A DNA stretch of 64,000 nt from Arthrobacter stackebrandtii. Its GTDB lineage: Bacteria; Actinomycetota; Actinomycetes; Actinomycetales; Micrococcaceae. The position numbers and the translations under genes are program-made. The stretch lies in NCBI RefSeq assembly GCF_017876675.1, contig NZ_JAGIOI010000001.1, positions 1,240,001 to 1,304,000 on the forward strand, in the 5' to 3' direction. Positions 31,924-55,141 of the stretch are shown one piece after another. The number at the start of each line of letters is the position of its first letter. The stretch's first letter is position 1. The notes under the pieces were generated by a model. The model was not told the origin of the DNA. It ran no database searches and saw only the letters and a list, made by a program, of their open reading frames with translations.

Positions 31924-31985
31924 TCCCAATAAATAACACACAGGCTTCCATCTGTCACAATTCAAAGGATCGGCCATTTCGGGTC

Positions 31986-32013
31986 AACTTTTGCTTGACG
32001 CTCGTCAAAAGTT
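31986..32013. promoter_or_regulatory. nested inverted repeat in the divergent ROK/isomerase promoter
   Basis: Outer arms AACTTTTG (31986-31993) and CAAAAGTT (32006-32013) enclose an inner repeat TTGACG-CT-CGTCAA (31995-32008). The inner TTGACG may also be a -35 element for the isomerase operon (ATG 32061). The outer half-site matches the one upstream of the importer binding protein (29292-29314). Confidence 0.55.
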
Positions 32014-32060
32014 CCCATAGGTTGATGTGGAACACACTTTCATGCCCGCTAGGAGCTCCA

Positions 32061-32795: not shown

Positions 32796-32800
32796 GCACC

Positions 32801-33907: not shown

Positions 33908-33916
33908 GAACCTCCC

Positions 33917-35104
33917 ATGACCTCCCCCCAATCCAACAGCCCCGGCACCCGCCCCCTGGGTGTCGCCGCCATCGGCTACGCCTTCATGGGCCAGGCCCAC
34001 TCCAACGCGTGGCGTTCGGTGGCAAACCACTTCGACGTCCCCGCTTTCGAGCAAAAGGTCTTGGTGGGCCGGGATGCCGGGGCCGTGGCCGCCGCCGCCG
34101 CCAAGTACGGCTGGAGCGAATCTGCCACGGATTGGCGGGAGGTCATTGCACGCGAGGACATCGACATCATCGACATCTGCGCCCCCGGCTGGCTGCATGC
34201 TGAAATTGCGACGGCGGCCCTCGCCGCCGGCAAGCATGTGCTGGTTGAGAAGCCCCTCGCCAACTCCATGGCCGAGTCCGTGTCCATGGTCGCCGCCGCG
34301 CAGGCCGCCCGTGAGATTGGCGTCCGGTCCATGGTGGGCTTCAACTACCGCCGGATCCCCGCACTGGCCCTGGCCCGCAAGCTCATCGCCGACGGCGAGC
34401 TGGGCACGGTCCGGCAGGTCCGGGCGTCGTACCTGCAGGACTGGCTGGCCGATCCGGAGTCCCCCATGACGTGGCGGCTGCGCAAGGAAACCGCAGGCTC
34501 CGGTGCGCTGGGAGACATCGCCTCCCACGCCGTCGACCAGGTCCAGCACCTCCTGGGCGACACCGTCATCGCGGCCTCCGGCAAGCTTCACACCTTCACC
34601 ACTGAGCGCCCGGGTCCGGACGGCCCCGAGCCGGTCACGGTCGACGACGCAGCCTGGGCCACGCTGGAAATGGCCGGCGGTGCCGTGGCCAGCGTGGATG
34701 TTTCGCGGGTGGCCCTGGGCCAGAAGAATGCGCTGCGGGTGGAGGTTTACGGCACGAACGGGGCCCTGACATTCAACCTGGAGAACCCCAACGAACTGTT
34801 CTACCTCAATGCCCGGGAGCCCATCGAAGTGCAGGGGTTCCGGCGCATCCTGGTCACCGAACCCGTGCATCCGTACATTTCCGGCTGGTGGCCGCAAGGG
34901 CATGTCCTGGGCTGGGAGCACAGCTTCACGCACCAGATCAGGGACTTCCTGCTGAACATTGCCGACGGAACTGACCCCTCGCCGTCGTTCGAGGAGGGGC
35001 TCGGCGTCCAGCAGGTCCTGGCCGCGATCGAGGACTCCTCCGCCGCCGGCGGCGCAACCGTCACGCTGGCCGAGCCCGCCATATCCACCACCCGCACTTC
35101 CTAA
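33917..35104 (+). CDS. Gfo/Idh/MocA family oxidoreductase
   Basis: A 395-residue dehydrogenase, second of its family in the operon. The N-terminus reads [16 protein letters not shown] (near 14-29), with G-Y-A-F-M-G in place of the classical G-x-G-x-x-G; the EKP motif is VEKPLANS near 112 and [21 protein letters not shown] near 193-213 carries the D-x-x-x-H pair. The close spacing (9 bases before, 11 after) places it in the operon. The paired dehydrogenases may perform an oxidation and a reduction, as in keto-sugar pathways; this is inference. Confidence 0.92.
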
Positions 35105-35115
35105 GGACTGAATTC

Positions 35116-36117
35116 ATGGCACGCCCCTACACCCTGTTCACCGGCCAGTGGGCCGACCTCCCCTTCGAGGAAGTTGCCCGGCTGGCTTCCGAATGGGGCT
35201 ACGACGGACTGGAGATTGCCTGCTCGGGCGACCACCTGGACCCGTGGCGCTGGGACGAGCCCGGCTACGTTGCCGGCAAGCTCGCCACCCTGGAGAAGTA
35301 CGGCCTGAAGGTCTGGGCCATCTCCAACCATCTCAAGGGCCAGGCGGTGTGCGATGACCCCATCGACTTCCGCCACCAGGCGATCGTCGGCACCAAGGTG
35401 TGGGGCGACGGCAATCCCGAGGGAGTGCGCCAGCGAGCCGCCGAGGAGATGAAGCTGACCGCACGGCTGGCCCAGGCACTCGGCGTGAAGACAGTTGTGG
35501 GCTTCACGGGCTCGTCCATATGGCAGTATGTGGCGATGTTCCCACCCGTCCCGGAATCGGTCATCGAGGCCGGATACCAGGACTTTGCCGACCGCTGGAA
35601 CCCCATCCTGGACGTCTTTGACGAGTGCGGCGTACGCTTCGCCCACGAGGTGCACCCCTCCGAAATCGCCTACGACTACTGGACTACCGTCCGCTCACTG
35701 GAGGCGATCGGCCACCGGCCGGCGTTCGGGCTGAACTGGGATCCGAGCCACTTCATGTGGCAGGGCATCGACCCGGTCTCCTTCATCTGGGACTTCAAGG
35801 ACAGGATCTACCACGTTGACTGCAAGGACACGAAGCTGCGCCCCACCGGCCGCAACACGGTCATGGGCTCGCACCTGCCGTGGGGCGATCCGCGCCGCGG
35901 CTGGGACTTTGTCTCCGCAGGGCGGGGCGACGTGCCCTGGGAATCCTCCTTCCGCGCGCTGACCGCCATCGGCTATGACGGCCCCATTTCCATCGAATGG
36001 GAGGACGCCGGCATGGACCGCCTGCAGGGGGCGCCCGAGGCACTTGCGGCACTGAAGAAGTTCGACTTCGCCCCCTCGGCCTTGTCTTTCGACGCCGCCT
36101 TCAGCAACCAGGACTGA
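35116..36117 (+). CDS. sugar phosphate isomerase/epimerase (TIM barrel)
   Basis: A 333-residue xylose-isomerase-like TIM barrel. Metal-ligand segments are visible: [13 protein letters not shown] near 175-187, [13 protein letters not shown] near 207-219, IYHVDCKDT near 233-241 and [11 protein letters not shown] near 291. It is longer than the first isomerase, with an added loop around [22 protein letters not shown]. Last gene of the operon, ending 12 bases before a strong terminator. The reaction is probably keto-sugar isomerisation or 3-keto-glycoside handling. Confidence 0.9.
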
Positions 36118-36194: not shown

Positions 36195-36953
36195 CTAGGC
36201 AGCTTCGCGGCGGTCGAAGGTCAGGCCCCCGGGGACCTGGAAGGTGGGCATGAGTTCCAGCATGCCCACGTTAACGTGGCGCGGTGTCTCAACGGCATAG
36301 TCCAGGGCGTTGACGATGTCGTCGGTGGTGAGCGATTCGTACCCTTCGTAGTACGTCTCCCACGCTTCCTGCATGGCCTCCGGCGAGCCGCCCATGTTGC
36401 GTCCGAAGATCTCGGTTTCAACACGTCCCGGGCAAATTTCCGTCACACGGATCCGCTTGCCCAGGGTGTCGTTGCGCAGCTGCCGCGACACCTGGTGAAC
36501 GGCCGCCTTGGTGGCGTGGTAGGCGGTGTGACCGAAGAAGTTGTAGAGGCCGGCGATGGAGCTGATGTTGACGATGTGCCCCAGATCCCGCTCAACCATG
36601 CCCGGCAGGACCAGGCGGGTCAGCTGGAGCAGGCCGCGAAGGTTGACGTCGATGAGCTCGTCAATGTCGTTTTCGGACGAGGTCAGGATGTTGCCCGGCC
36701 GCGAGACTCCAGCACAGTTCACCAGGACATCCACCTTCAGCTCCGACACCATTGCTGTGAGCGCGGCAGTGTCTGTCAGGTCGAGAACGTGCGGGATGGC
36801 GCCCGTCCGGTCGGCCAGTTCCGCGAGCCGTTCCTCGTTCCGGGCCACGGCATGGACCGTCAGGCCGCGCTTCGTAAGGCGCTCCGCAATGGCGGCGCCC
36901 ATTCCTGTTGACGCCCCGGTGACAAGAGCCGTTGAGTAGTCGGAAAATGACAT
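36195..36953 (-). CDS. SDR family oxidoreductase
   Basis: A 252-residue short-chain dehydrogenase. TGASTGMG near 12-19 binds the cofactor; VNCAG near 80 replaces NNAG; the catalytic Ser is in NISSIAG (near 132) and Y-x-x-x-K in AYHATKAA (near 147). The C-terminus is typical of the YdfG/serine-dehydrogenase-like group that acts on small hydroxy acids and amino acids such as serine and 3-hydroxy acids. As last gene of the PxpA-B-C-MFS unit it may oxidise or reduce a hydroxylated intermediate. The substrate is inferred from context only. Confidence 0.88.
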   Translation of the reverse strand: MSFSDYSTALVTGASTGMGAAIAERLTKRGLTVHAVARNEERLAELADRTGAIPHVLDLTDTAALTAMVSELKVDVLVNCAGVSRPGNILTSSENDIDELIDVNLRGLLQLTRLVLPGMVERDLGHIVNISSIAGLYNFFGHTAYHATKAAVHQVSRQLRNDTLGKRIRVTEICPGRVETEIFGRNMGGSPEAMQEAWETYYEGYESLTTDDIVNALDYAVETPRHVNVGMLELMPTFQVPGGLTFDRREAA

Positions 36954-37029
36954 GGTTGTCTCCCAATATGTGTAGTGAATCGTCTATTTGGTACCCGCCG
37001 GACGGCTGTTGGGCTGCCCGTCTTGCTGC

Positions 37030-38373
37030 CTATTCGTCGCGCAGCGGCAAGTGGGCCCTGTCCTGGACCGTGCTGACTGCCAGCAGGGTTCCCAGTGCCG
37101 TGATGACCGCATAAAAAGCCGGCATGTAGATGTTGCCCGTGGAGGCAATGAGCCAGGTCATCAGCAGCGGTGCCGTTCCACCAAAAAGTGCCGATGACAC
37201 GTTGTAGCCGAGACCGTACGCCGAGTACCGCACCCGTGTTGGGAACAGTTCCACGATGAGGATGTGGATTACGGCGGTGTGTCCGGAGAATGCGATCGCC
37301 ATGATGCAGGCGCCCAGGATGGCCAGGCCCATCTCCCCCGTGGCGATGAGCGCATAGGACGGGATGCCCACAATGGCCATGGCGATGGCGGACCCGGCAA
37401 TGACCTTCTTACGGCCAATCCGGTCTGAAAGGCTGCCCATGATGGGGATGGCAATGCAGATGACCACCAGGCTGCACGCCGTGACCAGCAGCGCCTGGCC
37501 TATGCCAAAGTTGAGCTGCTCTCCCTTCAGGAACGTTGGCATGAAAGAGAACAGGACGTAGTACCCGGAGCCGTTCATCAGGGGAATGAAGAGCGCCAGC
37601 AGCATGGCCCGCCGGTGGACGGGGGTGGCGAACGCTTCCTTCAGCGGGTTCTTGGACAGCCCGCCTTCCTCCTTGAGCTTCTCAAAGTTGGGGGTGTCGG
37701 TGATCGACTTCCTGATGTACCAGCCAATGAAGCCCATCGGGATGGCCACCAGGAACGGGATGCGCCAGGCAAACGCACCAAATCCGCCGCCGTTGATGGC
37801 TTCCTCGGTGAGCCATGGCGACATGGAGTAGGCCACCAGTGTGCCTGTGAGGAGTGCCGCAAAAGAGGCGATTTGGGCATACGAGGTAATGATGCCGCGT
37901 CTGCCCTCGGGTGCGTGTTCGGCCAGAAACGTCATGGCACCGGCCGATTCGCCGCCGACCGAGAAGCCTTGGAGAAGGCGCAGGGTGATCAGAAGGATGG
38001 GTGCTGCGATGCCGATGGCGGCATAGCCGGGCAGCATGCCGATGCCGGCAGTGGCCACACTGATCAAAAGAATGACGAAGACCAGGAGACGTTGGCGCCC
38101 GATCCGGTCTCCGAGATAGCCGCAGACGACGGCTCCCAGCGGGCGGACCAGGAAGGAAATGGCGTAGCCGGCAAAGACGAACAGCAAGGCGTTGTCAGGG
38201 TTGCCCGGCGCCAGGAAGACCAGGGCCAGGGTCCCGGCCATGAAGGCAAAGATGCCGTTGTCGTAAAGCTCGACAAAGATCCCTACGCACCCGGCGGTGA
38301 CGACCTTCCGGGTTTGTGCCGCGTTGAGCGGTGCCTCTGGCGTGCTTTCAACACGCATTGTTGTGCTTGTCAT
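37030..38373 (-). CDS. MFS transporter, metabolite:H+ symporter (KgtP/ShiA-like)
   Basis: A 447-residue permease with twelve membrane segments. Family marks are GYLGDRIGRQR in the loop after segment 2 (near 85-95), LRLLQGFSVGGESAGAMTFLAEHAP (near 132-156), the long central loop with ITDTPNFEKLKEEGG, and SDRIGRKK near 315. Members import dicarboxylates, osmolytes or aromatic acids (KgtP, ProP, ShiA). It stands between PxpC and the SDR gene on the same strand, so it likely moves the substrate or a product (for example a 2-oxoglutarate analogue) of this operon. Confidence 0.92.
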   Translation of the reverse strand: MTSTTMRVESTPEAPLNAAQTRKVVTAGCVGIFVELYDNGIFAFMAGTLALVFLAPGNPDNALLFVFAGYAISFLVRPLGAVVCGYLGDRIGRQRLLVFVILLISVATAGIGMLPGYAAIGIAAPILLITLRLLQGFSVGGESAGAMTFLAEHAPEGRRGIITSYAQIASFAALLTGTLVAYSMSPWLTEEAINGGGFGAFAWRIPFLVAIPMGFIGWYIRKSITDTPNFEKLKEEGGLSKNPLKEAFATPVHRRAMLLALFIPLMNGSGYYVLFSFMPTFLKGEQLNFGIGQALLVTACSLVVICIAIPIMGSLSDRIGRKKVIAGSAIAMAIVGIPSYALIATGEMGLAILGACIMAIAFSGHTAVIHILIVELFPTRVRYSAYGLGYNVSSALFGGTAPLLMTWLIASTGNIYMPAFYAVITALGTLLAVSTVQDRAHLPLRDE

Positions 38374-38426
38374 CTATATTCCTCATTGAATTCATGGACG
38401 GGCCGTGGCTGGGGTGGTTCATAGCC

Positions 38427-39449
38427 TCAGGCCGTTTGATTGCTCTCGAGAGCGTTGGCTCCGCTCCCGGTGGTTCCGCTCTGCAAGCCGAGCAGGCCGA
38501 ATACTGTATTGACGCGGGTCCGCAGCTTATCCAGCTCACGCATTGCGGAGCGGTGGTTCGCAGTGGCTTCGGCAACTGTCGTGTGGCGAAAGGTGATGAG
38601 ATGTCCTGGCCGGGCTTGCGCCAGGGCATCGAGAGAAAGGCTTGTGACCACTGCCATCACGGGATATCCCGCGGTCACTCCGCGTCCTCGGTGCAGCACC
38701 AGCAGTTCGTCCCGCGAGGGGACTTCGACGGCCCCCACGGGCACTCCGCGTGAGAGCACCTCTGAGGTGAGCTGCCGCTCGGGCAGGTCGCCGCGGAGCC
38801 GGAGCCCTATGTGGTTGCTGCGGTCACCGACAGTGTAGGAACCGCTGAACAGCTTTTGGGCTGTTTCGCCAAACTCCTCGATGTCCGGGCCGTCCGTGAC
38901 CTCAATGACCGGATGCGTGCTGATGCCGGGCCTGGACAGTCCGAGCCGGAACAGCGGCAGGTCAAAATAGGGCTGGCGGATGGGTCGTACGCTCCGCCTC
39001 GTTGCCAGGGAGTCCCCGTCCATGAGCCGGTGGCCGAAGCCAACCACCGTGTCGGGCGCGCAACTGCCAAGAAGGGTGGGTGTTTCGACGGAGCCATGGA
39101 TTGCAAGGTACGCACGCAGGCCGCCCCTCATGGCGCGAATGGAAATCGTTTCCCCTGCTGCCACCGAGACCGGCTCCCACTGCGGGCATTCCCTGCCTCC
39201 CACGGTCAAGGTCAGGGACGCCCCCGTCACGGATATCAGGATGTCCTCGGTGCTGCGCAGCCGGACATCCAATGCGGTGATTTCCAGCAGCGGCTCATTG
39301 TCATGGTTTCCCACGAGAATGTTCGCCGCACGTGCAGAAAACTGGTCCAGGGCACCGTTGACGGGCAGGCCGTAGCGCGGGCCGCGGACACGGCCAAGGT
39401 CGGTGACGACGCTGTGGCCGCCTTGTTGAACCAGAAGTGTCCCAGTCAT
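38427..39449 (-). CDS. pxpC: 5-oxoprolinase subunit C-like (KipA / biotin-dependent carboxyltransferase family)
   Basis: A 340-residue protein of the PxpC/KipA family. Marks are the N-terminal GGHSVVTDLGRVRGPRYGLPVNGALDQFSARAANILVGN and the middle RAMRGGLRAYLAIHG, with the last third carrying VLHRGRGVTAGYPVMAVV. With PxpA and PxpB it makes the ATP-dependent 5-oxoprolinase that opens 5-oxoproline to glutamate. The start overlaps the PxpB stop by 4 bases. The C-terminal 30 residues extend past the usual end. The clustering with an aldolase and aminotransferase suggests a substituted substrate; see findings. Confidence 0.9.
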   Translation of the reverse strand: MTGTLLVQQGGHSVVTDLGRVRGPRYGLPVNGALDQFSARAANILVGNHDNEPLLEITALDVRLRSTEDILISVTGASLTLTVGGRECPQWEPVSVAAGETISIRAMRGGLRAYLAIHGSVETPTLLGSCAPDTVVGFGHRLMDGDSLATRRSVRPIRQPYFDLPLFRLGLSRPGISTHPVIEVTDGPDIEEFGETAQKLFSGSYTVGDRSNHIGLRLRGDLPERQLTSEVLSRGVPVGAVEVPSRDELLVLHRGRGVTAGYPVMAVVTSLSLDALAQARPGHLITFRHTTVAEATANHRSAMRELDKLRTRVNTVFGLLGLQSGTTGSGANALESNQTA

Positions 39450-40162
39450 GGCAAAGCCTCCAGCGGTTGGCCGTCGTAGCGTGCGAAGTCCTCGGGTGAA
39501 ATCCGGTGAAAGCGCAGGACATCCCCGGGCAGGTAGGGCACCAGTGGTTCCCTGGATGCGTCAAGCAGCGTCAGTGGTGTCTGTCCGATGACGCACCAGC
39601 CGCCCGGAGCGGAGGCCGGCGCGATGACCGCCTGCCGGCCGGCCACCGAAACGGCACCTGCCGGTACTGAGATGCGTGGGTCCTTCAGCCGCGGAACCGG
39701 CAGGGGAAAGTCGGGACCGTCCATCATGGGTGAACCGGCGGGTGCGCCCAGGCAGCGGATGACATAAGACTTGGCTGTGTGAAGCCGGATGATTTCCTCA
39801 ACGCCAAGGCCTTCATGGTCGGCCACGCGTGCCAGGTCCGGGCCGAACTGCCCGCCATAGACCACGGGTACTTCAAATTGCCGAGGGGTGCGGGAGGTGG
39901 CGCCGACGAAGTCGATCTGGCGCATCGCCAGGAGCACAATGGCACGCACCTGGCGCGCCGAGGTGAGGTGGGAGTCAAACTCCACGAGCAGCGAATCATA
40001 GGTGGGGACGGCCCCGTGGATGCCGTCCATGCCTGACGAGTCAAGCCAGCCGGCCAGGGCATGGACTGTCTTCCAGTCATGCTCCCGGTCGCCGGTGGTG
40101 GCGACGACCCGCAGGGCCGCGTCACCAGCTTCATGCACCTCGATGGTGGTGGATGCACCCAT
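39446..40162 (-). CDS. pxpB: 5-oxoprolinase subunit B-like (KipI family)
   Basis: A 238-residue protein of the PxpB/KipI family. It contains the cyclophilin-like core with VPVVYGGQFGPDLARVADHEGLGVEEIIRLHTAKSYVIRCLGAPAGSPMM (near 107-155) and the C-terminal GGWCVIGQTPLTLLDASREPLVPYLPGDVLRFHRI. It begins at ATG 40162, one base after the PxpA stop, and overlaps PxpC by 4 bases, so A, B and C are translated together. As in PxpB, it should form the catalytic complex with PxpC. Confidence 0.92.
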   Translation of the reverse strand: MGASTTIEVHEAGDAALRVVATTGDREHDWKTVHALAGWLDSSGMDGIHGAVPTYDSLLVEFDSHLTSARQVRAIVLLAMRQIDFVGATSRTPRQFEVPVVYGGQFGPDLARVADHEGLGVEEIIRLHTAKSYVIRCLGAPAGSPMMDGPDFPLPVPRLKDPRISVPAGAVSVAGRQAVIAPASAPGGWCVIGQTPLTLLDASREPLVPYLPGDVLRFHRISPEDFARYDGQPLEALP

Positions 40163-40163
40163 G

Positions 40164-40952
40164 TCAGGCCACCAGCCGCTTGTTCTCAAGGACCTTGCGG
40201 AGCGGCGCAATGCGCACGCCGGAGGCCGTCAGTTCGGTGCGTATAAGCCTCGCAAGGTCCACGGCACCCGGGTTGTCTCCGTGCAGCAGCACCGTGTCTG
40301 CAGTGATCGGGAGGTCAGTTCCGTCCACGGCCCGGATCAGTCCTTCACAGACCATTCGAATGGTCCGGTCAACGATTGCCTTGGCGTCGCGGATGACCGC
40401 ACCCGGCTGGCTGCGGGGAACGAGCGTGCCGTCAGGCATGTAGGCGCGGTCGATGATTCCCACAATTCCGACTGGCAGCCCACGCTCCGAGCCGGCCTTG
40501 GACAGCTCCCCGTCCTGCGCCACCAGGATGAGGTCCGGGCGCACGCGGGCCGCCGCATCGGCCACCGCATCGGCGTAGTCCGCCCTGGTGGCCACGAGGT
40601 TGCCCAGGCGGCCATGGGGGGCAATGTGTGAAATTTCGGTACCGTGGTAGGCGGCGAAGCCGTTCAGGGCGCCGAGCTGGTATAGGACGTCGTTGCGGAC
40701 TTCGGCGGCGGTCAGGTCCATGGCACGGCGGCCAAATCCCCTGAGGTCTGGAAAACTGGGGTGTGCCCCGATGCTGACTCCGCGGCGGACACATTCGGCA
40801 ACGGTGGCCTCCATGATGTCGGGGTCCCCGGCGTGAAATCCGCAGGCGATGTTGGCGCTGGAGACGATGTCCAGCAGCGCCTTGTCGTCCCCCATGCTCC
40901 AGGCGCCGAATCCTTCGCCGAGATCTGCGACAAGATCAATTGTGGGCCCCAT
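40164..40952 (-). CDS. pxpA: 5-oxoprolinase subunit A-like (LamB/YcsF family)
   Basis: A 262-residue LamB/YcsF protein. Family marks are VADLGEGFGAW at the N-terminus (D-L-x-E-G-F-G; DLNEGFG in most members, N to G here), SANIACGFHAGDP near 32-44, GAHPSFPDLRGFGRR near 63-77 and LHGDNPGAVDLARLI near 223-237. PxpA supplies the phosphorylation/ring-opening part of 5-oxoprolinase. It is the first gene of the pxpA-pxpB-pxpC-MFS-SDR operon. A TAGGTCTTTG-type motif (41040-41053) lies about 90 bases before its start. Confidence 0.92.
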   Translation of the reverse strand: MGPTIDLVADLGEGFGAWSMGDDKALLDIVSSANIACGFHAGDPDIMEATVAECVRRGVSIGAHPSFPDLRGFGRRAMDLTAAEVRNDVLYQLGALNGFAAYHGTEISHIAPHGRLGNLVATRADYADAVADAAARVRPDLILVAQDGELSKAGSERGLPVGIVGIIDRAYMPDGTLVPRSQPGAVIRDAKAIVDRTIRMVCEGLIRAVDGTDLPITADTVLLHGDNPGAVDLARLIRTELTASGVRIAPLRKVLENKRLVA

Positions 40953-41039
40953 TGCTGCCTTCCTATACGTTGTTTGGCGTTCCGTGCCGGGAGCTGTTTC
41001 CCGGTTTCATGTCATTGAGTCTGTCACCGAGAGTTGGCT

Positions 41040-41053
41040 CACACAAAGACCTA
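41040..41053 (-). promoter_or_regulatory. LysR-regulon motif copy upstream of pxpA
   Basis: The 14 bases CACACAAAGACCTA are identical to the left arm plus spacer of the palindrome at 45341-45361 near the LysR gene. The right arm is absent here. The copy lies about 90 bases upstream of the PxpA start in the only promoter region for that operon. Confidence 0.6.
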
Positions 41054-41099
41054 AAAACTGTCATGAGACAGCTTCGGCTTATGACCCACGCCACGGAAA

Positions 41100-41132
41100 T
41101 GGCGGGTGCCGGGCATCCGCCGACACCCGCCA
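41100..41132 (-). terminator. stem-loop after the polyamine-type importer operon
   Basis: A perfect 9-bp stem TGGCGGGTG/CACCCGCCA with a 15-base loop lies 7 bases after the stop at 41140 of the last permease gene. It should end the four-gene importer transcript. Confidence 0.7.
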
Positions 41133-41139
41133 AGGGGTT

Positions 41140-41955
41140 CTAATTGAGGGCTTTGCGGAGCCCCATGACACGTTCCACCACAACGACGACGGCCAGGGAG
41201 ATCAGGATAAGGATCACCGAGAGTGCGGCCACGGCCGCATCGGCCGAGTTTTCCACATACCGAAGGACCTGGACGGGAAGTGTCGGGAGCCCGGATTCGG
41301 CGACGAAGAGCGAGATCACCGCTTCGTCGAAAGAGACGATGAAGGCGATGACTCCGCCGGCAATGACACCGGGGCGGATGATCGGCAGGGTGACCCTGCG
41401 AAACACCGTCCAGGGGCCGGCACCGAGGATGCGTGCCGCATCCTCGCACGAGGTGTCGGCGGTGGCCAGGCTCATGATGGTGGTCCGGATGACGAAGGGG
41501 ATGGTGATGGCCACGTGCCCAATGATGATCCCTGTGTATGTGTTGTTCAGGTTCAACGGCCCAAACAGAAGGACCATGCCCAATGCCAGGACGATGCTGG
41601 GCGTCAGCAGCGGCGAAAGAAAGAACGCTTCCATCGCCGGCTTGGACTTGAATTCGAACCGTTGCAGGGCCATCGCCGCGGGAACGCCGATGGCCAGGAC
41701 AACCACCGTGACGAACGCGGCCACAATGAGGCTGACCTTCATGCCTTCCACGAAGATGGTTTCCGAGGGAAGCGCCTGGTACCACTTCAGCGTGAAGCCC
41801 TCGGGCGGGAAGGAGAGGTATTGGTTGGATGCGAAGGACACCACGAAGACGATGATCAGCGGCGCCAGCAGGAAGAGGTAGAGAAGAAAGACGACGATGT
41901 TGAATATCGGCTTCGCGGGATTGAACCGCGGTTTGAAAAGGCGGAGTTCACTCAT
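41140..41955 (-). CDS. ABC transporter permease (PotC type)
   Basis: A 271-residue permease of the spermidine/putrescine (PotC) class with six membrane segments and the EAA loop CEDAARILGAGPWTVFRRVTLPIIRPGV near 170-197. The ATG at 41955 lies 2 bases beyond the stop of the PotB-type gene, so they are coupled. It is the last gene of the importer operon SBP-ATPase-PotB-PotC. The frame is open far upstream but only this part has membrane-protein composition. Confidence 0.92.
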   Translation of the reverse strand: MSELRLFKPRFNPAKPIFNIVVFLLYLFLLAPLIIVFVVSFASNQYLSFPPEGFTLKWYQALPSETIFVEGMKVSLIVAAFVTVVVLAIGVPAAMALQRFEFKSKPAMEAFFLSPLLTPSIVLALGMVLLFGPLNLNNTYTGIIIGHVAITIPFVIRTTIMSLATADTSCEDAARILGAGPWTVFRRVTLPIIRPGVIAGGVIAFIVSFDEAVISLFVAESGLPTLPVQVLRYVENSADAAVAALSVILILISLAVVVVVERVMGLRKALN

Positions 41956-41957
41956 GG

Positions 41958-42881
41958 TCAGCCTCCGATCTTTTGGACGATGCGCTGGTATATGGCAATG
42001 ATGGTGCCGAACAGGACCAGCAGGATGACGGACAGGGCAGCAGCAAACGGCCAGTTCAGCAGGCCCGTGGTTTGGTCGTAGATTTCCGTGGCCAGCACTT
42101 GCACACTGCCGCCGCCAAGGAGTCGCGGGGTGATGAACGTGCTGATGGCCATGACAAAGACCAGTAGGAACGCAGTGAAAACACCGGGAAGGCTCAGCGG
42201 CAGGGTGATCCGCATGAATACCTTGAACTTGCTCGCACCCAGTGATCCGGCCGCTTCCTCCAGTTGCGGGCTGAGCCGCCCAAATCCGGAGATCATGGCC
42301 AGGATCGCATAGGGCATGAAGATCTCGACCAGGCCTATGGTCACGCCAGTCATGTTGTTGGTCAGTTTCAGCGGTGAGCCAATGAGGCCCATGGATTCCA
42401 GTGAAGTGTTGACGAGGCCGTTGGTGCCCAAAATGACCATCCAGCCGTAGGTGCGCACAACAGCGGATGTCAGGAGCGGTGCAATGGCGATGGCGAGCAG
42501 TAGCCCCTTGTATTTGCTGGTGCTGCGCACGAGGAACAGTGCGATCGGGTAGGACACAACCAGGCACAGCACGCCGACGGTCAGGCCCATCCTGAACGTG
42601 TCGAGCGTGACCCGCCAGTAGTAGGGGTCGGTGAGGGGCTTGATGTAGGTCTGGAATGTGAAGGTGTCGATGACGACGCCGTCCGGCGCTCCTTCGTTGA
42701 AGGACATCCTGACCATATAGAGCAGCGGAAAGACGAAGCTGACCAGCAGTCCGAGAATCCCCGGTATCAGCAAGGCCAGGTAGGCGCGCTTGCGCCGCTT
42801 GTTCGCAGCCGCTTCAAGAACGCCCGATTCCAGGCCCTTGCGGATTCCGGGAACAGGGTTTTCTGTCTTGATCATTGTCAT
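41958..42881 (-). CDS. ABC transporter permease (PotB type)
   Basis: A 307-residue permease with a basic N-terminus, six membrane segments and the EAA loop LEEAAGSLGASKFKVFMRITLPLSLPGV near 215-242. It belongs with PotB/AfuB-type permeases for polyamines, opines or modified amino acids. The ATG at 42881 overlaps the ATPase stop by 4 bases. The periplasmic loop after segment 1 (MSFNEGAPDGVVIDTFTFQTY) is typical. Confidence 0.92.
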   Translation of the reverse strand: MTMIKTENPVPGIRKGLESGVLEAAANKRRKRAYLALLIPGILGLLVSFVFPLLYMVRMSFNEGAPDGVVIDTFTFQTYIKPLTDPYYWRVTLDTFRMGLTVGVLCLVVSYPIALFLVRSTSKYKGLLLAIAIAPLLTSAVVRTYGWMVILGTNGLVNTSLESMGLIGSPLKLTNNMTGVTIGLVEIFMPYAILAMISGFGRLSPQLEEAAGSLGASKFKVFMRITLPLSLPGVFTAFLLVFVMAISTFITPRLLGGGSVQVLATEIYDQTTGLLNWPFAAALSVILLVLFGTIIAIYQRIVQKIGG

Positions 42882-43996
42882 GCCGCAACCGCTTTCGCAT
42901 GCTCCGGGAGGATGTACGCGTGCTCGGGGTCCCACGACAGGTATGCCGTGTCACCGGTGTGCGGCAGGCTGCCGCTGGTGGTGTGGAGCTGCGATTGCAG
43001 GATTTCATCGCCGACCCTGACGGCGATCGTCAGGGTGTCACCTGTGTAACTGACCTGTTCAACGGTGCCCTTGAGTTCCTGGGCGGAAGTTGACGGCTGC
43101 AGGGAAGCCCTGAGGCGGTGCGGGCGGATGAGCACGGGCAGGCTGTTGCCGGTCAGTCCGGGGGCGCCCACGGCGCCGAACTGTCCCAGCCCCGGCACCT
43201 CGATCTTGTAGTTCCGCTCCCCGGCCGCGGAGGCCTGGCCGACGTCTTCGCCAACTGTGATGGTGAGGAAGTTTGCCTGGCCGATGAAGTTGGCAACAAA
43301 GTGTGTGCGGGGACGTTCGTAGACATCGACGGGCGAGCCGAACTGCTCAATGAGGCCGCCGTTCATGACGGCGATGCGGTCGGCCATGTCCAGGGCCTCG
43401 TCCTGGTCGTGCGTTACGAACAGGGTGGTGGCCCGGGTGCGCTGCTGGATGGACCTGATTTCCGTGCGCATCGTGTCGCGAAGCTTGGCGTCCAGGTTGG
43501 ACAGCGGCTCATCGAGCAGCAGCAGGGTGGGTTCGACGACAAGCGCCCGCGCGAGAGCGATGCGCTGTTGCTGGCCACCGGAGAGCGCCTTGGTGGCCCG
43601 CTTGCCAAGGTGGCCCAACTGGACCATGTCCAAGGCTTCGGCGACACGGACCTTTTGTTCGGCTTTGGGAACCTGGCGCATCTGGAGCCCGAAGGCCACA
43701 TTCTGCTCAACGTTCATGTGCGGGAAGAGTGCATAGGACTGAAAAACCATTCCCATGCCGCGCTTGTTGACGGGTTCCTGGGTGATTTCGCGGCCGTCGA
43801 CCATGATGGACCCGGCGGTGGGATCCATCAGGCCGGCAACCATTCGCAGCGTTGTTGTCTTGCCGCAGCCGGACGGTCCCAGAAGTGCCACCAGGTGCCC
43901 TTCCTCCACTTCCATGTTGAGGCGGTCGACGGCGGGCGCCAGGCCTGCAGCGTACTTCTTCGTTAGATCAACGATCGACAGTTTTGATTCAGTCAT
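42878..43996 (-). CDS. ABC transporter ATP-binding protein (PotA type)
   Basis: A 372-residue ATPase. Walker A is GPSGCGKTT near 37-45, the ABC signature LSGGQQQR near 135-142, Walker B LLLLDEPLSNLD near 155-166 and the H-loop VTHDQDEA near 196. A C-terminal TOBE domain (about 240-370) gives the CUT1/PotA architecture. It energises the adjacent PotB/PotC-type permeases. Unlike the sugar importer at 26-29 kb, this operon has its own ATPase. Confidence 0.95.
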   Translation of the reverse strand: MTESKLSIVDLTKKYAAGLAPAVDRLNMEVEEGHLVALLGPSGCGKTTTLRMVAGLMDPTAGSIMVDGREITQEPVNKRGMGMVFQSYALFPHMNVEQNVAFGLQMRQVPKAEQKVRVAEALDMVQLGHLGKRATKALSGGQQQRIALARALVVEPTLLLLDEPLSNLDAKLRDTMRTEIRSIQQRTRATTLFVTHDQDEALDMADRIAVMNGGLIEQFGSPVDVYERPRTHFVANFIGQANFLTITVGEDVGQASAAGERNYKIEVPGLGQFGAVGAPGLTGNSLPVLIRPHRLRASLQPSTSAQELKGTVEQVSYTGDTLTIAVRVGDEILQSQLHTTSGSLPHTGDTAYLSWDPEHAYILPEHAKAVAA

Positions 43997-44043
43997 GGTT
44001 TGGTTCTCCTGGAGCGGTAAGTGTGAAGGGCACCTGGGTGCAG

Positions 44044-45123
44044 TTACTTGATGATCTGGCGCTTCCAGGTGTCAGTCCACTTATCTCTTGCGGATGACAG
44101 GAAGTCCACGTCAAGCGGGACGATGTTCAAGGAACCGTCAGTGGGTACAACACGATTCTTGACGTCCTCCGGCAGCTCCGCGTTGGTGACGGACGGAGCA
44201 TAGAAGAGCTTTTCGGCAAACGCTGCCTGCGCTTCGGCTGACAGCGCGTAGTCGATGAACGTCTTGGCTGCTGCGGAGTGCGGGGCGTCCTTGACCAGGT
44301 TGATGGTGTTGATCTGGTAGACGGTGCCTTCCTTGGGGAATGTCACGCCCATCTTCTTGTTGCTCTGGTCGCTGTAGAACTGGCCTCGCGCGTTCTGCCC
44401 CAGGCCGAGCACCGTCTGACCGGTGATGATGCTTTGGTATTCGTCGGGGTTCGGGGCGAACGTCTGGACGGCCGGCGCCAATTCCTTCAGGCGGGCCACC
44501 GCCTTGTCGATGCTCTTCGTGTAGTCCTCACCCTCCATTTTGGAGGTGATGGCGGTCAGCGAAAGGCCCAGCAGTGATGGCGGCGCATTCACGTTGATCT
44601 TGCCTGCGTAGGCCGGATCCCACAGCACATTCCAGCTCTCAGGGGCTGTTGGGAATGTGGCGGTGTCGTAGACCAGGCCAATGGCATCGAGCATTACGAC
44701 CGGGCCGAATCCGTCCTTGTTCTGGAACTCATCAGCGACGTTGGCCAGGTTGGGAACTCCCGCTGCGTCGATTTTCTCAAACAATCCCTGCTTGTTGCCT
44801 GAGGTTGAGACGGAATTGTCCATGATCGCAACGTCCGTGGCCGGCTTGCCCTTTTGGCCTTGCAGCGCACTGAGCATCTCGGCGGACGAGCGCTTGGATG
44901 AGTATGTGATCTTGATGTCGGGGTATTTGGCCTTGAAGGGCTCGATGACGGCAGCGTTGTACTGGTCCTGCCAGACACCCGAGTACGCGATGAGGCTCAC
45001 TTCGCCCGACGTCGGGCTGTCGCCGCCGGCGGCACTGCCGGACCCGCCGCATGAGGCCAGTGCCAGCGCCATTGCGGAGACCGTCGTCACTGCAGCAATC
45101 TTGCCCATAATTGATTTCTTCAT
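44044..45123 (-). CDS. ABC transporter substrate-binding lipoprotein (PotD/AfuA-like)
   Basis: A 359-residue binding protein. The lipobox is LALASCGGS with C25 and a Gly/Ser linker. The mature part has family features: VSLIAYSGVWQDQYNAAVIEPFKAKYPDIKITY, KGKPATDVAIMDNS and GLVYDTATFPTAPESWNVLWDPAYAGKIN (near 150-180). These match binding proteins for polyamines, iron, phosphonates and amino-acid derivatives; the ligand cannot be read directly. It is the first gene of the importer operon and is divergent from the LysR gene, with a palindrome at 45341-45361 between them. Confidence 0.92.
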   Translation of the reverse strand: MKKSIMGKIAAVTTVSAMALALASCGGSGSAAGGDSPTSGEVSLIAYSGVWQDQYNAAVIEPFKAKYPDIKITYSSKRSSAEMLSALQGQKGKPATDVAIMDNSVSTSGNKQGLFEKIDAAGVPNLANVADEFQNKDGFGPVVMLDAIGLVYDTATFPTAPESWNVLWDPAYAGKINVNAPPSLLGLSLTAITSKMEGEDYTKSIDKAVARLKELAPAVQTFAPNPDEYQSIITGQTVLGLGQNARGQFYSDQSNKKMGVTFPKEGTVYQINTINLVKDAPHSAAAKTFIDYALSAEAQAAFAEKLFYAPSVTNAELPEDVKNRVVPTDGSLNIVPLDVDFLSSARDKWTDTWKRQIIK

Positions 45124-45340
45124 TTGCAGATTCCTTCTACTTGGCAAGGCACCAGCCTTGCAGTGGACTATTCAAAAAAGCAGGTTTCAGCATTTTCTGC
45201 CGATCGGCCAGCGACACTTCCATGTGCAACTACGGCGACAATCCCGGATTGAAGAAGTTTTCATCCCGATCGCCGCAGGATAGAATTGGCGCGGCGTCGG
45301 AATTTCCGTCTCAGATCAACCTATTATGCGAGACGTGGAT

Positions 45341-45361
45341 CACACAAAGACCTATTGTGTG
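45341..45361. promoter_or_regulatory. LysR operator candidate (CACACAA-N7-TTGTGTG)
   Basis: Perfect 7-bp arms CACACAA and TTGTGTG flank the spacer AGACCTA. It lies 68 bases before the LysR start and about 220 bases before the divergent binding-protein gene. Left arm plus spacer recur exactly at 41040-41053, and the spacer core recurs at 48472-48480. The rest of the 45124-45428 gap shows no gene. Confidence 0.7.
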
Positions 45362-45428
45362 TCCCTCCATACATTTCAGATATGACCCCTGACCCGACAC
45401 CCAGGAGCCATCAGGAAAGAAGAGCACC

Positions 45429-46358
45429 ATGGACACGCGCAGGCTTGCCTATTTTGTGAAGATCGTTGACTCCGGCAGCATCACCAAGGCCGCGGCGGCC
45501 CTGCATGTGGCCCAGCCGGCACTCAGCCAGCAAGTCTCTGCATTGGAGAAGGACCTCAAGCAGCGGCTCCTGATCAGGAGCAAGCAAGGCGTCTCCCCCA
45601 CCGCCGCCGGATACACCCTGTACCGGCACGCCCAAACCATCTTGCGCCTCGTGGAACAGGCCCGCTCGGACGTTTCCGCCTCGGGTGCCGCACCATCCGG
45701 GCGCGTCTCCATCGCGATCGCACCCTACAGCATGGCGTCGACCCTGACACCGCGGATCATGAGTGAGGTCAGCCGGAGATATCCCGACATTGTGCTTCAT
45801 TTGACGGAGATATATGGTGGCGTGCTCAGTGACGCCATCCGCAACGGCCGCCTGGACATGGCCCTCATTTATGAGCCCGGGCCCATTCGGGGTGTCCAAT
45901 TCACCACTTTGAGCATCGAAGAACTTTATCTGGTGGCAAACGCCAAGCGCGTGTCAGCGGCCGTTGCGGAAAGCGGCATGACAACGTTGCAGGAAGCCGC
46001 CAGCTTTGGCATGATCCTTCCGGAACAGAACCACACCCTGCGGCAAATCGTCGAGGAAGGTTTCAAGGACAAGGGTCTGGAACTTCAGCTGGTGGGCGAA
46101 GTCGAGTCCTCCCCCACCCTAAGGCAACTGCTTCGCGCCGATCTGGGAGCCACCATCCTTCCCCGTTCAGCCGCCGAGTCCCTTTTTGACGACGAGGATT
46201 TCGTCTTCCTGCGTATCACCGATCCCACATTGTCATGCAAGATTGCATTGTGCACCCCGGACCACGAGCCGTTGTCAGAGGCAGCATCCGCCGTTCTGAG
46301 AATTCTCAATGAGATGTTCCATGAAATGCTCACCGAAAATGGAGTGCAAAACGCGTAA
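45429..46358 (+). CDS. LysR family transcriptional regulator
   Basis: A 309-residue LysR protein. The winged helix lies at about 1-60 (LAYFVKIVDSGSITKAAAALHVAQPALSQQVSALEKDL), with the effector domain from about 90. It is divergent from the importer operon and stands between importer and aldolase/aminotransferase genes, and shared motifs upstream of three operons make it the likely activator of all of them. The closest named type is the Nac/CynR-like group with short-chain nitrogen compounds as effectors; this is only a suggestion. Confidence 0.92.
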   Translation: MDTRRLAYFVKIVDSGSITKAAAALHVAQPALSQQVSALEKDLKQRLLIRSKQGVSPTAAGYTLYRHAQTILRLVEQARSDVSASGAAPSGRVSIAIAPYSMASTLTPRIMSEVSRRYPDIVLHLTEIYGGVLSDAIRNGRLDMALIYEPGPIRGVQFTTLSIEELYLVANAKRVSAAVAESGMTTLQEAASFGMILPEQNHTLRQIVEEGFKDKGLELQLVGEVESSPTLRQLLRADLGATILPRSAAESLFDDEDFVFLRITDPTLSCKIALCTPDHEPLSEAASAVLRILNEMFHEMLTENGVQNA

Positions 46359-46410
46359 TTAGTCCATTTGCATTTCTAATTCCAATTTCGAACGTTTTCA
46401 TCGGACCGGT

Positions 46411-46445
46411 CTGCCCCTCAAAATAGAATTCATTTTGAGGGGCAG
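46411..46445. terminator. bidirectional stem-loop between lysR and rraA-like genes
   Basis: A perfect 14-bp stem CTGCCCCTCAAAAT/ATTTTGAGGGGCAG with a 7-base loop lies 52 bases after the LysR stop and 34 bases after the stop of the aldolase gene on the other strand. Confidence 0.8.
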
Positions 46446-46479
46446 GCTGCTGCGTGGACAATTTATCCAGGCCTCTTGG

Positions 46480-47157
46480 CTACGCGTCCTCAACCAGGAG
46501 ACCCTTGGCCTTGAGCACCTCCGTGAGGTTGCACAGCTCAATGGTTGTGCCGCCTGCCAGGTACCTGCCCATGAGTTCGCGCTCTTCGTCGTCGCGCTGC
46601 TGGGACAGGCGGATGACATCTTCGATTTCTTCACGGCGAATGACGACGACGCCGTCGGCGTCGCCCTTGAGGATGTCGCCGGGGTAGATGATCTCGTCGC
46701 CGAAGACCACCGGGTGGTTGATGGGGCCGATCGTCTCCTTGACGGTTCCCTTGATGCAGACGTTGGCCGAGAAGACGGGCAACCCCAGTTCGATGAGGTC
46801 CTGGGTGTCCCGGACGCCGGAATCAGTCACCATCGCGGCCAATCCCTTGGCCTTCATGGCGGTTCCCAGCACGTCACCGAACGTTCCGGCTTCACCGTAT
46901 TCGCCGGCTGACACCAGGACGACGTCCCCGGCTTCGGCATAGTGGATGGCCACCTGCAGCATGAGGTTGTCCTTGGGCGCGCAGCGCACGGTCACGGCCG
47001 GACCGCAGAAGGACATGTTCCGGTCGATCGGCTTGATCTTGGAATTGAGTGCGCCCTTGCGGCCCTGCGCCTCGTGAATGGTGGCGGATGAAAACTTGGC
47101 CAGCCTGGCAACGGCTTCGGCGGTGGGGCGCTCAAACTTGGTTTTGACATGAATCAT
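46480..47157 (-). CDS. RraA-like 4-hydroxy-4-methyl-2-oxoglutarate aldolase family protein
   Basis: A 225-residue RraA-fold protein. The pyruvate aldolase signature is present: GEAGTFGDVLGTAMKAKGLAAMVTDSGVRD near 92-121, with G-x-x-x-G and the D-x-G-x-R-D metal/substrate pair, then GLPVFSANVCIKG. This points to an HMG/CHA aldolase-type enzyme (Mg-dependent cleavage of 4-hydroxy-4-substituted 2-oxoglutarates to pyruvate, with oxaloacetate decarboxylase activity) and not to an RNase E inhibitor, which lacks these residues. It forms an operon with the aminotransferase upstream (31 bases between). Confidence 0.88.
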   Translation of the reverse strand: MIHVKTKFERPTAEAVARLAKFSSATIHEAQGRKGALNSKIKPIDRNMSFCGPAVTVRCAPKDNLMLQVAIHYAEAGDVVLVSAGEYGEAGTFGDVLGTAMKAKGLAAMVTDSGVRDTQDLIELGLPVFSANVCIKGTVKETIGPINHPVVFGDEIIYPGDILKGDADGVVVIRREEIEDVIRLSQQRDDEERELMGRYLAGGTTIELCNLTEVLKAKGLLVEDA

Positions 47158-47188
47158 GGCAGTGCTCCTTGGGTGTTTGGTGTGGAAA

Positions 47189-48397
47189 CTAGCTAAGTGC
47201 CATGACGGATTTTTCAATGGCGGCAAGCGCCTCATTGATGACTTCCACGCTGGTGGCGTAGGAAATCCGGAAGTACGGGCCGACCCCGTAGGCGGATCCC
47301 TGAATGACCGCCACTGAGGCGCTGTCGAGCAGGTACATGGTGAAATCCTCATCGTTGCTGATGACGGCACCGTCGGGGGTTGTCTTGCCAACGACGCCGG
47401 CACAGTTGACGTAGGCGTAAAAGGCGCCGTCGGGCGTCCTGCAGGCCAGGCCGTCGATGGCGTTGAGACCGGCCACGGCAATGTCGCGGCGGGAGCGGTA
47501 CACGTCCCGGCTTTCCAGCACGAATGTCTGGTCCCCGATCAGGGCTTCGGCGGCGGCAGCCTGGCTGACGGATGAAGGGCATGAGGAAATCTGTGACTGC
47601 AGCTTGTTGATGGCGGCAATCACGGGCTTTGGCCCAACCGCATAACCCAGTCGCCAGCCGGTCATGGCGTACGACTTGGACACTCCGTTGACCATGAGGA
47701 CGCGCCCGTCCAGTTCCGGTGCCACCCTGAGCAGGCAGGCCGGGCGTTCGGTGCCAAAGTAGATTTCATCGTAGATTTCGTCCGTCAGGACATGAACCTG
47801 GGGGAAATCAGCCAGGACCCGGGCCAGTCCGCGCAGTTCCTCTGCAGTATAAACGGCACCGGTGGGGTTGGAGGGAGTGTTCAGGATCAGCCATTTGCTC
47901 CGGTCCGTCAGTGCAGCGGCCAGCGACTCGGGTGTCAGCTTGAAGCCGGCGTCTTCACCGCACTCCACAATGACGGGCGTTCCTTCGTTGGCCAGGACCA
48001 TGTCGGGGTAGGACACCCAGTAGGGGGCGGGGATGACCACTTCGTCGCCTTCGCCCAGTGAGGCCATGAAGGCCGTGAAGATGACCTGCTTGGCGCCGCC
48101 GCCAATGGTGATCCGATCTGGCGTGTAGCGGACGCCGGTCCGGGATTCCATGGAGTGGATGATCGCAGCCTGCAATGCAGGCGTCCCTGCAACCGCGGTG
48201 TACCTGGTCTCACCGTTACGGACAGCCGCGATGGCGGCTTCCTTGATGTTCGCCGGGGTGTCGAAGTCGGGCTCGCCGACTGTCAGGTCAAGAATCCTCC
48301 GGCCCTCTGCCTTGAGCTCGCGGACACGTCCTGCGGCTGCAACGCTGGGCGAAGATTTGATGCGGGTCACCCGAGATGCGGGCACAAATTCAGTCAT
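47189..48397 (-). CDS. class I pyridoxal-phosphate aminotransferase (AspC/AraT-like)
   Basis: A 402-residue fold-type I aminotransferase. PLP-site residues are the catalytic Lys in NGVSKSYAMTGWRLGYAVGPK (near 235-255), the N-P pair in LNTPSNPTGAVY (near 170-181), D-E-I-Y in LTDEIYDEIYFG (near 200-211) and the Arg near FRISYA at the C-terminus, which binds the alpha-carboxylate. The likely amino donor/acceptor pair involves glutamate-like substrates. It begins at ATG 48397 (GTG at 48412 is an alternative) and is followed by the aldolase gene. The TAGGTCTTGG motif lies about 75 bases upstream. Confidence 0.93.
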   Translation of the reverse strand: MTEFVPASRVTRIKSSPSVAAAGRVRELKAEGRRILDLTVGEPDFDTPANIKEAAIAAVRNGETRYTAVAGTPALQAAIIHSMESRTGVRYTPDRITIGGGAKQVIFTAFMASLGEGDEVVIPAPYWVSYPDMVLANEGTPVIVECGEDAGFKLTPESLAAALTDRSKWLILNTPSNPTGAVYTAEELRGLARVLADFPQVHVLTDEIYDEIYFGTERPACLLRVAPELDGRVLMVNGVSKSYAMTGWRLGYAVGPKPVIAAINKLQSQISSCPSSVSQAAAAEALIGDQTFVLESRDVYRSRRDIAVAGLNAIDGLACRTPDGAFYAYVNCAGVVGKTTPDGAVISNDEDFTMYLLDSASVAVIQGSAYGVGPYFRISYATSVEVINEALAAIEKSVMALS

Positions 48398-48471
48398 TGG
48401 AATTCCAAGCACTAGGACCGGATGGGGGGTTTCACTTCCTTTGAGCCTAGGTACCCCGGGTGGCCTGTGAC

Positions 48472-48480
48472 CAAGACCTA
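48472..48480 (-). promoter_or_regulatory. LysR-regulon motif copy upstream of the aminotransferase
   Basis: CAAGACCTA (preceded by GTGAC) matches the core of the motif at 41040-41053 and 45341-45361. It lies about 75 bases before the aminotransferase ATG. The flanking gap to 48646 otherwise shows no gene. Confidence 0.45.
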
Positions 48481-48646
48481 AACCGCGTGGAACTATAAGC
48501 GGATCTTATGGCCTGCGTCACGGAACCTGCTTCCGCCGCTTTCTTATGGCGGCACGCATTTTAGGTATGTCCCCGCCAGACCATTTTCTGAGTAGCCTCC
48601 TAGTGAGGCAACAACCCAACCCCTGCAACTGAATCGAGCAATCGCA

Positions 48647-53001: not shown

Positions 53002-53045
53002 TGATAAGAGGACTTATCAACATGTTGTGCACAGATTGTGGACAA
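53002..53045. promoter_or_regulatory. operator palindrome and DnaA-box-like sites upstream of the type I RM operon
   Basis: A perfect 7-bp inverted repeat TGATAAG-AGGA-CTTATCA (53002-53019) is followed by TTATCAACA (53014-53022), TTGTGCACA (53025-53033) and, on the other strand, TTGTCCACA (53037-53045, an exact actinobacterial DnaA box). The region is AT-rich and ends 40 bases before ATG 53086. The palindrome is the likely site for the HTH protein that follows. Confidence 0.5.
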
Positions 53046-53085
53046 CGCCCTAAACTGTTCACAGGTCAAAAGAACGGGAGGGCAC

Positions 53086-55128: not shown

Positions 55129-55141
55129 AGAAAGCTGGATC

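Follow-up and report, generated by a model that had tools for sequence, protein, structure and literature searches.

Which compound is consumed by a soil bacterium that keeps genes resembling those for the three subunits of 5-oxoprolinase (PxpABC) beside genes for a class I aminotransferase and an RraA-family aldolase? Such a gene cluster lies in a 64,000-nucleotide stretch of Arthrobacter stackebrandtii DNA (C1:1240001-1304000 of a 4.43 Mb genome in a single contig), which is referred to throughout as the window. From right to left the genes are the aminotransferase, RraA, a LysR regulator, an ABC importer, pxpA-pxpB-pxpC, an MFS transporter and a short-chain dehydrogenase/reductase (SDR), and all but the LysR gene are on the minus strand. 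An original prediction, made from the letters of the window, had named these genes and proposed that they act head to tail in the uptake, ring opening, transamination and aldol cleavage of a 4-hydroxylated pyroglutamate or glutamate. An open reading frame check found every named gene present with its frame open, and family searches agree with the identities given. We consider it about an even chance that the module serves the catabolism of a 4-hydroxy-4-substituted pyroglutamate under a single NAC-type LysR regulator.

In order to look for the gene set elsewhere, a genome collection was scanned with an alignment of RraA, and the best 80 of 211 matches were kept, corresponding to 79 distinct loci. 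Of these, 56 extend at least 9 kb to either side of RraA and are called full loci here; genes in the relatives were called with a rough codon-usage script. The aminotransferase, pxpA, pxpB and pxpC are present in all 56 full loci, LysR in 55, the SDR in 48 and the MFS transporter in 46, and in the eight full loci that lack the SDR the fetched stretch terminates at pxpC or at the MFS gene. The ABC importer, which the original prediction had counted among the uptake genes, is present in the window but is found in only 13 of the 56 and is not part of the core. The aminotransferase adjoins RraA in 79 of 79 loci. As controls, we examined 26 stretches flanking RraA homologs with identities of 35-44% (12 stretches, L019-L030, and 14 stretches, L131-L135 and L139-L147), most of them reaching about 10 kb to each side, with L022 and a few others reaching less, and no pxpA match was detected in any of the 26. 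The loci fetched as controls include nine of 55 weaker alphaproteobacterial matches and five of six weaker matches from the phylum, none of the latter five with a pxpA, and control stretch L022 contains one distant aminotransferase (31%). Given that the aminotransferase and pxpABC accompany RraA in every full locus and pxpA is found in none of the controls, the grouping of the aminotransferase, RraA, pxpABC, LysR and SDR genes is not a product of chance and the linkage is real.

The named relatives that carry the loci are mostly Arthrobacter, Pseudarthrobacter and Paenarthrobacter, and across the Actinomycetota gene order is shuffled between lineages, being LysR, pxpA, pxpB, pxpC, MFS, SDR, aminotransferase, RraA in Streptomyces and pxpABC, SDR, RraA, aminotransferase in Microbacterium. 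Among 118 relatives, an RraA match of at least 80% identity is found in six genomes, the window's own included, and all six hold the aminotransferase, RraA, LysR and pxpABC together, five of them with the MFS gene. The SDR is present in the window and in four of the other five genomes; the stretch from the fifth is too short, but the SDR is seen in the copy of that contig from another collection. In one of these genomes (G005) the cluster pxpA is broken across two frames. G005 carries two pxpA copies that are each split over two frames (L017 11571-12358 and G005:C3:1428442-1429151), either through frameshift or sequencing error. The nearest relative (L031 / G012, RraA 98% identical) is filed as Sporosarcina beigongshangi REN13, a record name that looks wrong because the genome collection places the contig in the genus of the window. 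Distribution is patchy, with the gene set in 20 of 295 genomes of the family. In 346 genomes of the phylum, RraA scores above 400 bits only in the window's own genome, whereas matches in five others score 240 bits or less, and in 198 genomes from the family of a Paracoccus-labelled record two RraA scores stand out (397 and 359 bits) above the other 55 at 236 bits or less. The aminotransferase and pxpABC are kept with RraA in two alphaproteobacterial loci.

A diverged second module (L168, and L169 in another genome) contains MFS, pxpA, pxpB, pxpC, SDR, aminotransferase and RraA genes that are 28-49% identical to those of the window, and therefore the same parts list holds over a long distance. 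A third variant, at two Sinomonas-side loci, combines pxpABC with an RraA of 63% identity, an M24-like protein, an aldo-keto reductase and a distant aminotransferase; a 3-hydroxyisobutyrate-dehydrogenase-like protein also accompanies this variant, which lies beside the main cluster in Sinomonas (L129 689-16368, L130 and L084 1-6680). Genes for biotin carboxylase and a biotin carrier occur with pxp genes at L095 13044-14852, L103 8006-9774, L138 10537-14418 and L168 15740-17530, as if a split, urea-carboxylase-like biotin enzyme opened the lactam. Other uptake genes include a TRAP transporter in both alphaproteobacterial loci and an SBP_bac_1-type importer in Microbacterium, and LacI regulators are found in some relatives' loci, all of which fit an acidic, sugar-like compound. 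In addition, two relatives carry genes for glutamate dehydrogenase at their loci, which fits 2-oxoglutarate as the amino acceptor.

The pxp genes of the window encode the three subunit families LamB_YcsF, CT_C_D and CT_A_B side by side. PxpA (40164-40952) scores 321 bits against PRK05406.1-3 (cut-off 226) and exceeds the cut-offs of two PxpA subfamily models. Curated equivalog cut-offs are missed by both of its partners, with PxpB (39446-40162, starting at an internal ATG of a longer frame at 39446-40210) at 126.6 against 145.55 for TIGR00370 and PxpC (38427-39449), for which YbgK (5dud) is the nearest solved structure, at 147.4, far under the 500 set for PxpC model NF045499. Elsewhere the genome has a further PxpA (C1:2636118-2636831) adjoining a 557-residue frame that matches a fused PxpB and PxpC, and identity between the cluster copy and this other copy is 49% for PxpA, 33% for part of PxpB and 28% for PxpC. 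At least one further PxpA is present in all six cluster genomes of the relatives set. By these comparisons the cluster PxpABC is a paralogue.

In order to define how the cluster PxpA differs, 75 cluster rows were aligned with 21 canonical rows, made up of 18 fetched sequences and three PDB entries (E. coli, Pyrococcus and Thermus), where a fetched sequence was called canonical if it was the genome's other PxpA or came from a genome without the cluster. Three of 21 fetched further copies (L164-L166) were excluded from this set; L164 and L165 resemble the canonical rows at most positions, with Tyr at 166, and L166 has the cluster signature. Seven positions are invariant in all 21 canonical rows (N8, A54, K111, Y117, E164, F166 and C222), and the window PxpA differs at every one. 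Among the 75 cluster rows the changes are N8 to V in 71, A54 to C in 73, K111 to A in 70, Y117 to G in 75, E164 to V in 73, F166 to I in 69 and C222 to L in 75, so that the motif VKPHGALYN reads IAPHGRLGN with its PHG core unchanged. Replacement of Tyr, Phe, Lys and Glu by small or neutral residues suggests a different, roomier pocket. In a quick tree the cluster PxpA rows group together, with L166, the diverged copy from the second-module locus L168, inside, at a support of 85, or 97 without two alphaproteobacterial rows. Because the signature is altered and a further PxpABC is present in the genome, we regard the cluster PxpABC as a specialised paralogue that probably serves something other than plain use of 5-oxoproline. 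The pxpTABC genes of Corynebacterium glutamicum encode the same three subunit families with an uptake gene and a divergent regulator adjoining, as here, but their transporter is of the APC type, their regulator is a GntR protein and, in the part of the report available, they include no aminotransferase, aldolase or SDR (PMC13274462); in the window cluster the PxpA signature has diverged, and another PxpABC is encoded at a different place in the genome.

The RraA-family protein (46480-47157) is a class II pyruvate aldolase by family search, scoring 220.6 against PRK09262 (cut-off 179) while reaching 192.4 against the LigK/PcmE model TIGR02798, under its cut-off of 304.5. It aligns with the 4-hydroxy-4-methyl-2-oxoglutarate/4-carboxy-4-hydroxy-2-oxoadipate (HMG/CHA) aldolase of Pseudomonas putida (3noj), and the two belong to the same fold family by sequence. 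All 12 of a diverse set of cluster RraA proteins retain G101, R123, D124, G144, K147, R195 and E199, and also D102, which we take to belong on the list of catalytic residues. The remaining residues of the list come from PMC5065237, where the available part gives Arg-123 as essential and Asp-124 and Glu-199 as metal ligands. Arg40 is replaced by Lys in one of the 12 cluster proteins, and His75 of the P. putida enzyme is Gln in all 12. The P. putida enzyme catalyzes the last step of protocatechuate and gallate breakdown (PMC5065237), whereas here the gene lies beside an aminotransferase and pxpABC. A role in that aromatic pathway was set aside, as no ring-cleavage gene was recognised among the flanking proteins searched, a search that was not genome-wide. 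Two further RraA-family genes of the window's genome, 36-38% identical to the cluster RraA, are located at G000:C1:3959814-3960251 and G000:C1:1232648-1233136.

The regulator (45429-46358, plus strand) scores 313.9 bits against PRK11233, just above the cut-off of 309, as a NAC-type LysR protein. We examined promoter regions for the dyad ATA-N9-TAT, which we take to be the NAC consensus, in 68 pairs comprising the window and 67 of the 79 loci, the others being excluded for want of a usable LysR, aminotransferase or neighbour start or for a span outside 40-700 bases. The dyad is found between LysR and the importer/pxp unit in 62 of the 68 and upstream of the aminotransferase in 58, and all 58 loci of the latter kind also carry it before the importer/pxp unit; in Streptomyces-type loci the aminotransferase is inside the operon and no site 5' of it is expected. 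Over 20 rounds of shuffling the averages were 2.75 and 1.7 and the highest counts 6 and 7, and alternative spacers of 5 to 13 were seen in at most nine regions. In the window the predicted LysR sites are at 45369-45383, in the promoter region between LysR and the importer-pxp unit (45148-45428), and at 48495-48509, 5' of the aminotransferase and RraA genes. Both transcription units share a predicted LysR site and the set is probably regulated together. The genes are co-conserved and share a predicted regulator site, so that neither of the genomic findings named by the original prediction as refuting it, a lack of co-regulation or of co-conservation in relatives, was seen. An inverted repeat, CACACAA-N7-TTGTGTG, occupies 45341-45361 directly 5' of the first predicted site, and is absent from the repeats listed for three other loci (L032, L036 and L101).

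We infer each reaction of the pathway, the order of its steps and the substrate from these genes. Uptake would be by the MHS-family MFS transporter (37030-38373; 333 bits against the metabolite/H+ symporter model 2A0106, cut-off 443) or by the ABC importer. The specialised PxpABC paralogue would then use ATP to open the gamma-lactam to a 4-hydroxy-4-substituted glutamate, and the aminotransferase (47189-48412) would convert this to the 2-oxo acid. The aminotransferase scores 683 bits as aspartate transaminase PRK06107 (cut-off 617), and its nearest solved structures are aspartate aminotransferases B and A (6f35 and 6f77). Retro-aldol cleavage of a 4-hydroxy-4-substituted 2-oxoglutarate gives pyruvate and R-CO-COOH, and this step would fall to RraA. 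The SDR (SDR1, 36195-36953), a core gene whose product is YdfG- or 3-hydroxyacid-dehydrogenase-like (PF00106; best NCBIfam match YdfG at 168 bits, under the cut-off of 411) and whose PDB matches include clavaldehyde dehydrogenase and sulfoacetaldehyde reductase, may reduce a further keto group. In the mammalian hydroxyproline route 4-hydroxyglutamate is transaminated and then cleaved to pyruvate by the aldolase HOGA, two steps shared with this proposal, but that route employs a different aldolase family and is not known to have a lactam step or sugar-acid branch. Because a further PxpABC is present in the genome, the PxpA signature is altered and the RraA catalytic residues are kept, lactam opening followed by transamination and aldol cleavage is a reasonable chain and the best reading of the genes, and it needs a hydroxyl at C4. 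The head-to-tail chain of the original prediction is thus supported, and the compounds it offered are less so.

Evidence on the compound comes from three genes in or beside the clusters of relatives, which encode a D-2-hydroxyacid dehydrogenase, an idonate-5-dehydrogenase-like zinc dehydrogenase and a gluconate-5-dehydrogenase-like SDR, all scoring under the NCBIfam cut-offs. At an identity of at least 35% these are present in 32, 28 and 26 of the 79 loci, respectively; 37 of the 79 have at least one, and outside Arthrobacter sensu lato and Sinomonas this holds for 13 of 18 loci. In one relative the accessory genes lie at L036 17510-20445. Matches to each of the three (42%, 32% and 57%) occur at alphaproteobacterial locus L138 together with RraA, pxpABC, the SDR and the aminotransferase, and in Microbacterium a gluconokinase gene (TIGR01313, 190 bits, cut-off 114) directly follows the idonate-like gene. 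In the family sample, the idonate-like gene is within 15 kb of RraA in nine of 20 cluster genomes, and is present in 17 of the 20 compared with 69 of 275 others. The window genome has a similar trio elsewhere (C1:3406299-3410294), followed by a gene of the 6-phosphogluconate dehydrogenase family, as judged in a relative. In Aspergillus niger the same three protein families (GluD-GluE-GluF; a D-2-hydroxyacid dehydrogenase, an alcohol dehydrogenase and an SDR) convert 2-keto-L-gulonate to L-idonate, 5-ketogluconate and gluconate; they serve D-glucuronate, and the available parts of the reports describe no lactam, aminotransferase or aldolase (PMC5306355, PMC5814732). For the trio here these activities are predicted ones. 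In grape, breakdown of ascorbate from 2-keto-L-gulonate through L-idonate to 5-ketogluconate has been proposed (PMC11066805), with an aldo-keto reductase acting at the first of these steps (PMC6827314).

Given the trio, we infer that cleavage yields pyruvate and probably a C6 2-keto sugar acid. In many relatives R-CO-COOH would then be handled as such an acid, with the 2-hydroxyacid dehydrogenase reducing it to L-idonate, the idonate-5-dehydrogenase-like enzyme oxidising L-idonate to 5-ketogluconate and the gluconate-5-dehydrogenase-like enzyme reducing this to gluconate. Such a second product would make the starting lactam a C9 compound, with three carbons in an amino acid part and six in a sugar acid. 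One compound of this kind is ascorbalamic acid, the adduct of ascorbate (at C2) and dehydroalanine, and it could close to a gamma-lactam. That this vitamin C-dehydroalanine lactam is the substrate is a tentative suggestion, and a rather unlikely one taken singly, but it would give every core and accessory enzyme one step. PxpABC would free a 4-hydroxy-4-acylglutamate, the aminotransferase would give the 2-oxo acid, and RraA would release pyruvate and 2,3-diketo-L-gulonate, of which the SDR would reduce C3 and the 2-ketoacid reductase C2 to yield L-idonate, leaving the idonate- and gluconate-dehydrogenase-like enzymes to invert C5 and form D-gluconate. To our knowledge, the catabolism of an ascorbate adduct has not been described, and in the open-licence library searched no paper was found that joins RraA, an oxoprolinase and an aminotransferase, or HMG aldolase and 5-oxoprolinase. 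Ascorbalamic acid (C9H13NO8) has been tabled as a putative mass-spectrometry match (PMC9229034).

Several points weigh against a sugar-acid-bearing lactam, or against the module as a whole. The window's own cluster has no trio, and no trio gene is seen in 42 of the 79 loci in the stretch examined, many because the stretch ends first. Enrichment of the idonate-like gene is not significant within the genus of the window (5 of 6 versus 8 of 17, p 0.14) and is confounded by kinship, and the trio could have a plant-litter function distinct from that of the cluster and still often be found near it. Furthermore, the alphaproteobacterial PxpA has the cluster signature only in part, since both such proteins have G117 and L222, with N at 111 and L at 164 and 166, but retain canonical N8 and A54. 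That the altered PxpA positions line the pocket is presumed, and neither the loci nor the promoters can be counted as independent, many being from close relatives.

The alternative that survives best is a small compound such as 4-hydroxy-4-methylpyroglutamate, 4-hydroxypyroglutamate or a monatin-like molecule, giving two pyruvates, or pyruvate with glyoxylate or indolepyruvate, and with the trio as an unrelated neighbour. The core chemistry would be identical, enzymes of this aldolase family are known to act on HMG (PMC5065237), and the missing trio in the window's cluster favours it, but it gives the conserved SDR no clear step and does not account for the trio and gluconokinase being linked repeatedly. 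We consider it possible though doubtful, and the methylated and monatin-like substrates of the original prediction less likely than a sugar-acid-bearing one. Ordinary use of 5-oxoproline or of aspartate and glutamate, in which PxpABC yields glutamate, the aminotransferase moves the amino group and RraA decarboxylates oxaloacetate, agrees with the family scores of the aminotransferase (aspartate transaminase) and RraA (aldolase/oxaloacetate decarboxylase) and with documented oxaloacetate decarboxylation by HMG/CHA aldolase (PMC5065237); with another PxpABC in the genome, an altered cluster PxpA signature, and neither the SDR nor the trio needed, it is improbable and was set aside. Equally improbable is the lactam of an amino sugar acid, such as 5-amino-5-deoxygluconic acid, from which the aminotransferase would give 5-ketogluconate directly for reduction by the gluconate-5-dehydrogenase-like enzyme; this would account for lactam opening, the aminotransferase and the trio, but leaves an aldolase that is beside the aminotransferase at every locus without a role, and the aminotransferase scores as an aspartate-type alpha-amino acid enzyme. 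Opine use, in which agropinic acid (N-mannityl pyroglutamate) would pass through mannopinic acid to glutamate and sugar, is very improbable and was set aside, for although Arthrobacter can use mannopine-type opines and the importer's binding protein weakly matches agropine-binding protein (36.5 bits), 11 other PDB sequences outscore that match, the importer is confined to a minority of the full loci, and the aminotransferase and aldolase would be unneeded.

By family searches the accessory importer (41140-45147) is of the spermidine/putrescine/2-aminoethylphosphonate-like type, and consists of a PotC-like permease 2 (41140-41955), a PotB-like permease 1 (41958-42881, its start set by alignment to a relative), an ATPase (42878-43996) and a solute-binding protein (44044-45147, SBP_bac_8, with weak PDB matches only). 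Adjacent to the SDR is a sugar-type cluster (29615-36117) encoding LacI and ROK regulators, two xylose-isomerase-like TIM barrels and two GFO/IDH/MocA dehydrogenases, and TIM-barrel genes of the same Pfam family are also located within some relatives' pxp clusters (L094, L097 and L129). On the other side are type I restriction-modification genes (53038-58056), including HsdM (55142-56878) and a specificity subunit (56875-58056); a 696-residue frame ahead of HsdM has no Pfam match.

Taken at this strength, the cluster indicates that a PxpABC subfamily, 5-oxoprolinase to automatic annotation, opens a different lactam, and that an RraA clade named as aromatic-pathway aldolases belongs to an unrelated pathway. 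According to the available part of PMC5065237, it is unknown what such aldolases do in species that have no protocatechuate or gallate genes, and the cluster makes that role testable for one clade with a short list of candidate compounds. The gene set points to an undescribed nutrient and, if a sugar-acid product is correct, would link a nitrogen-containing, possibly plant-derived product of vitamin C to bacterial central metabolism.

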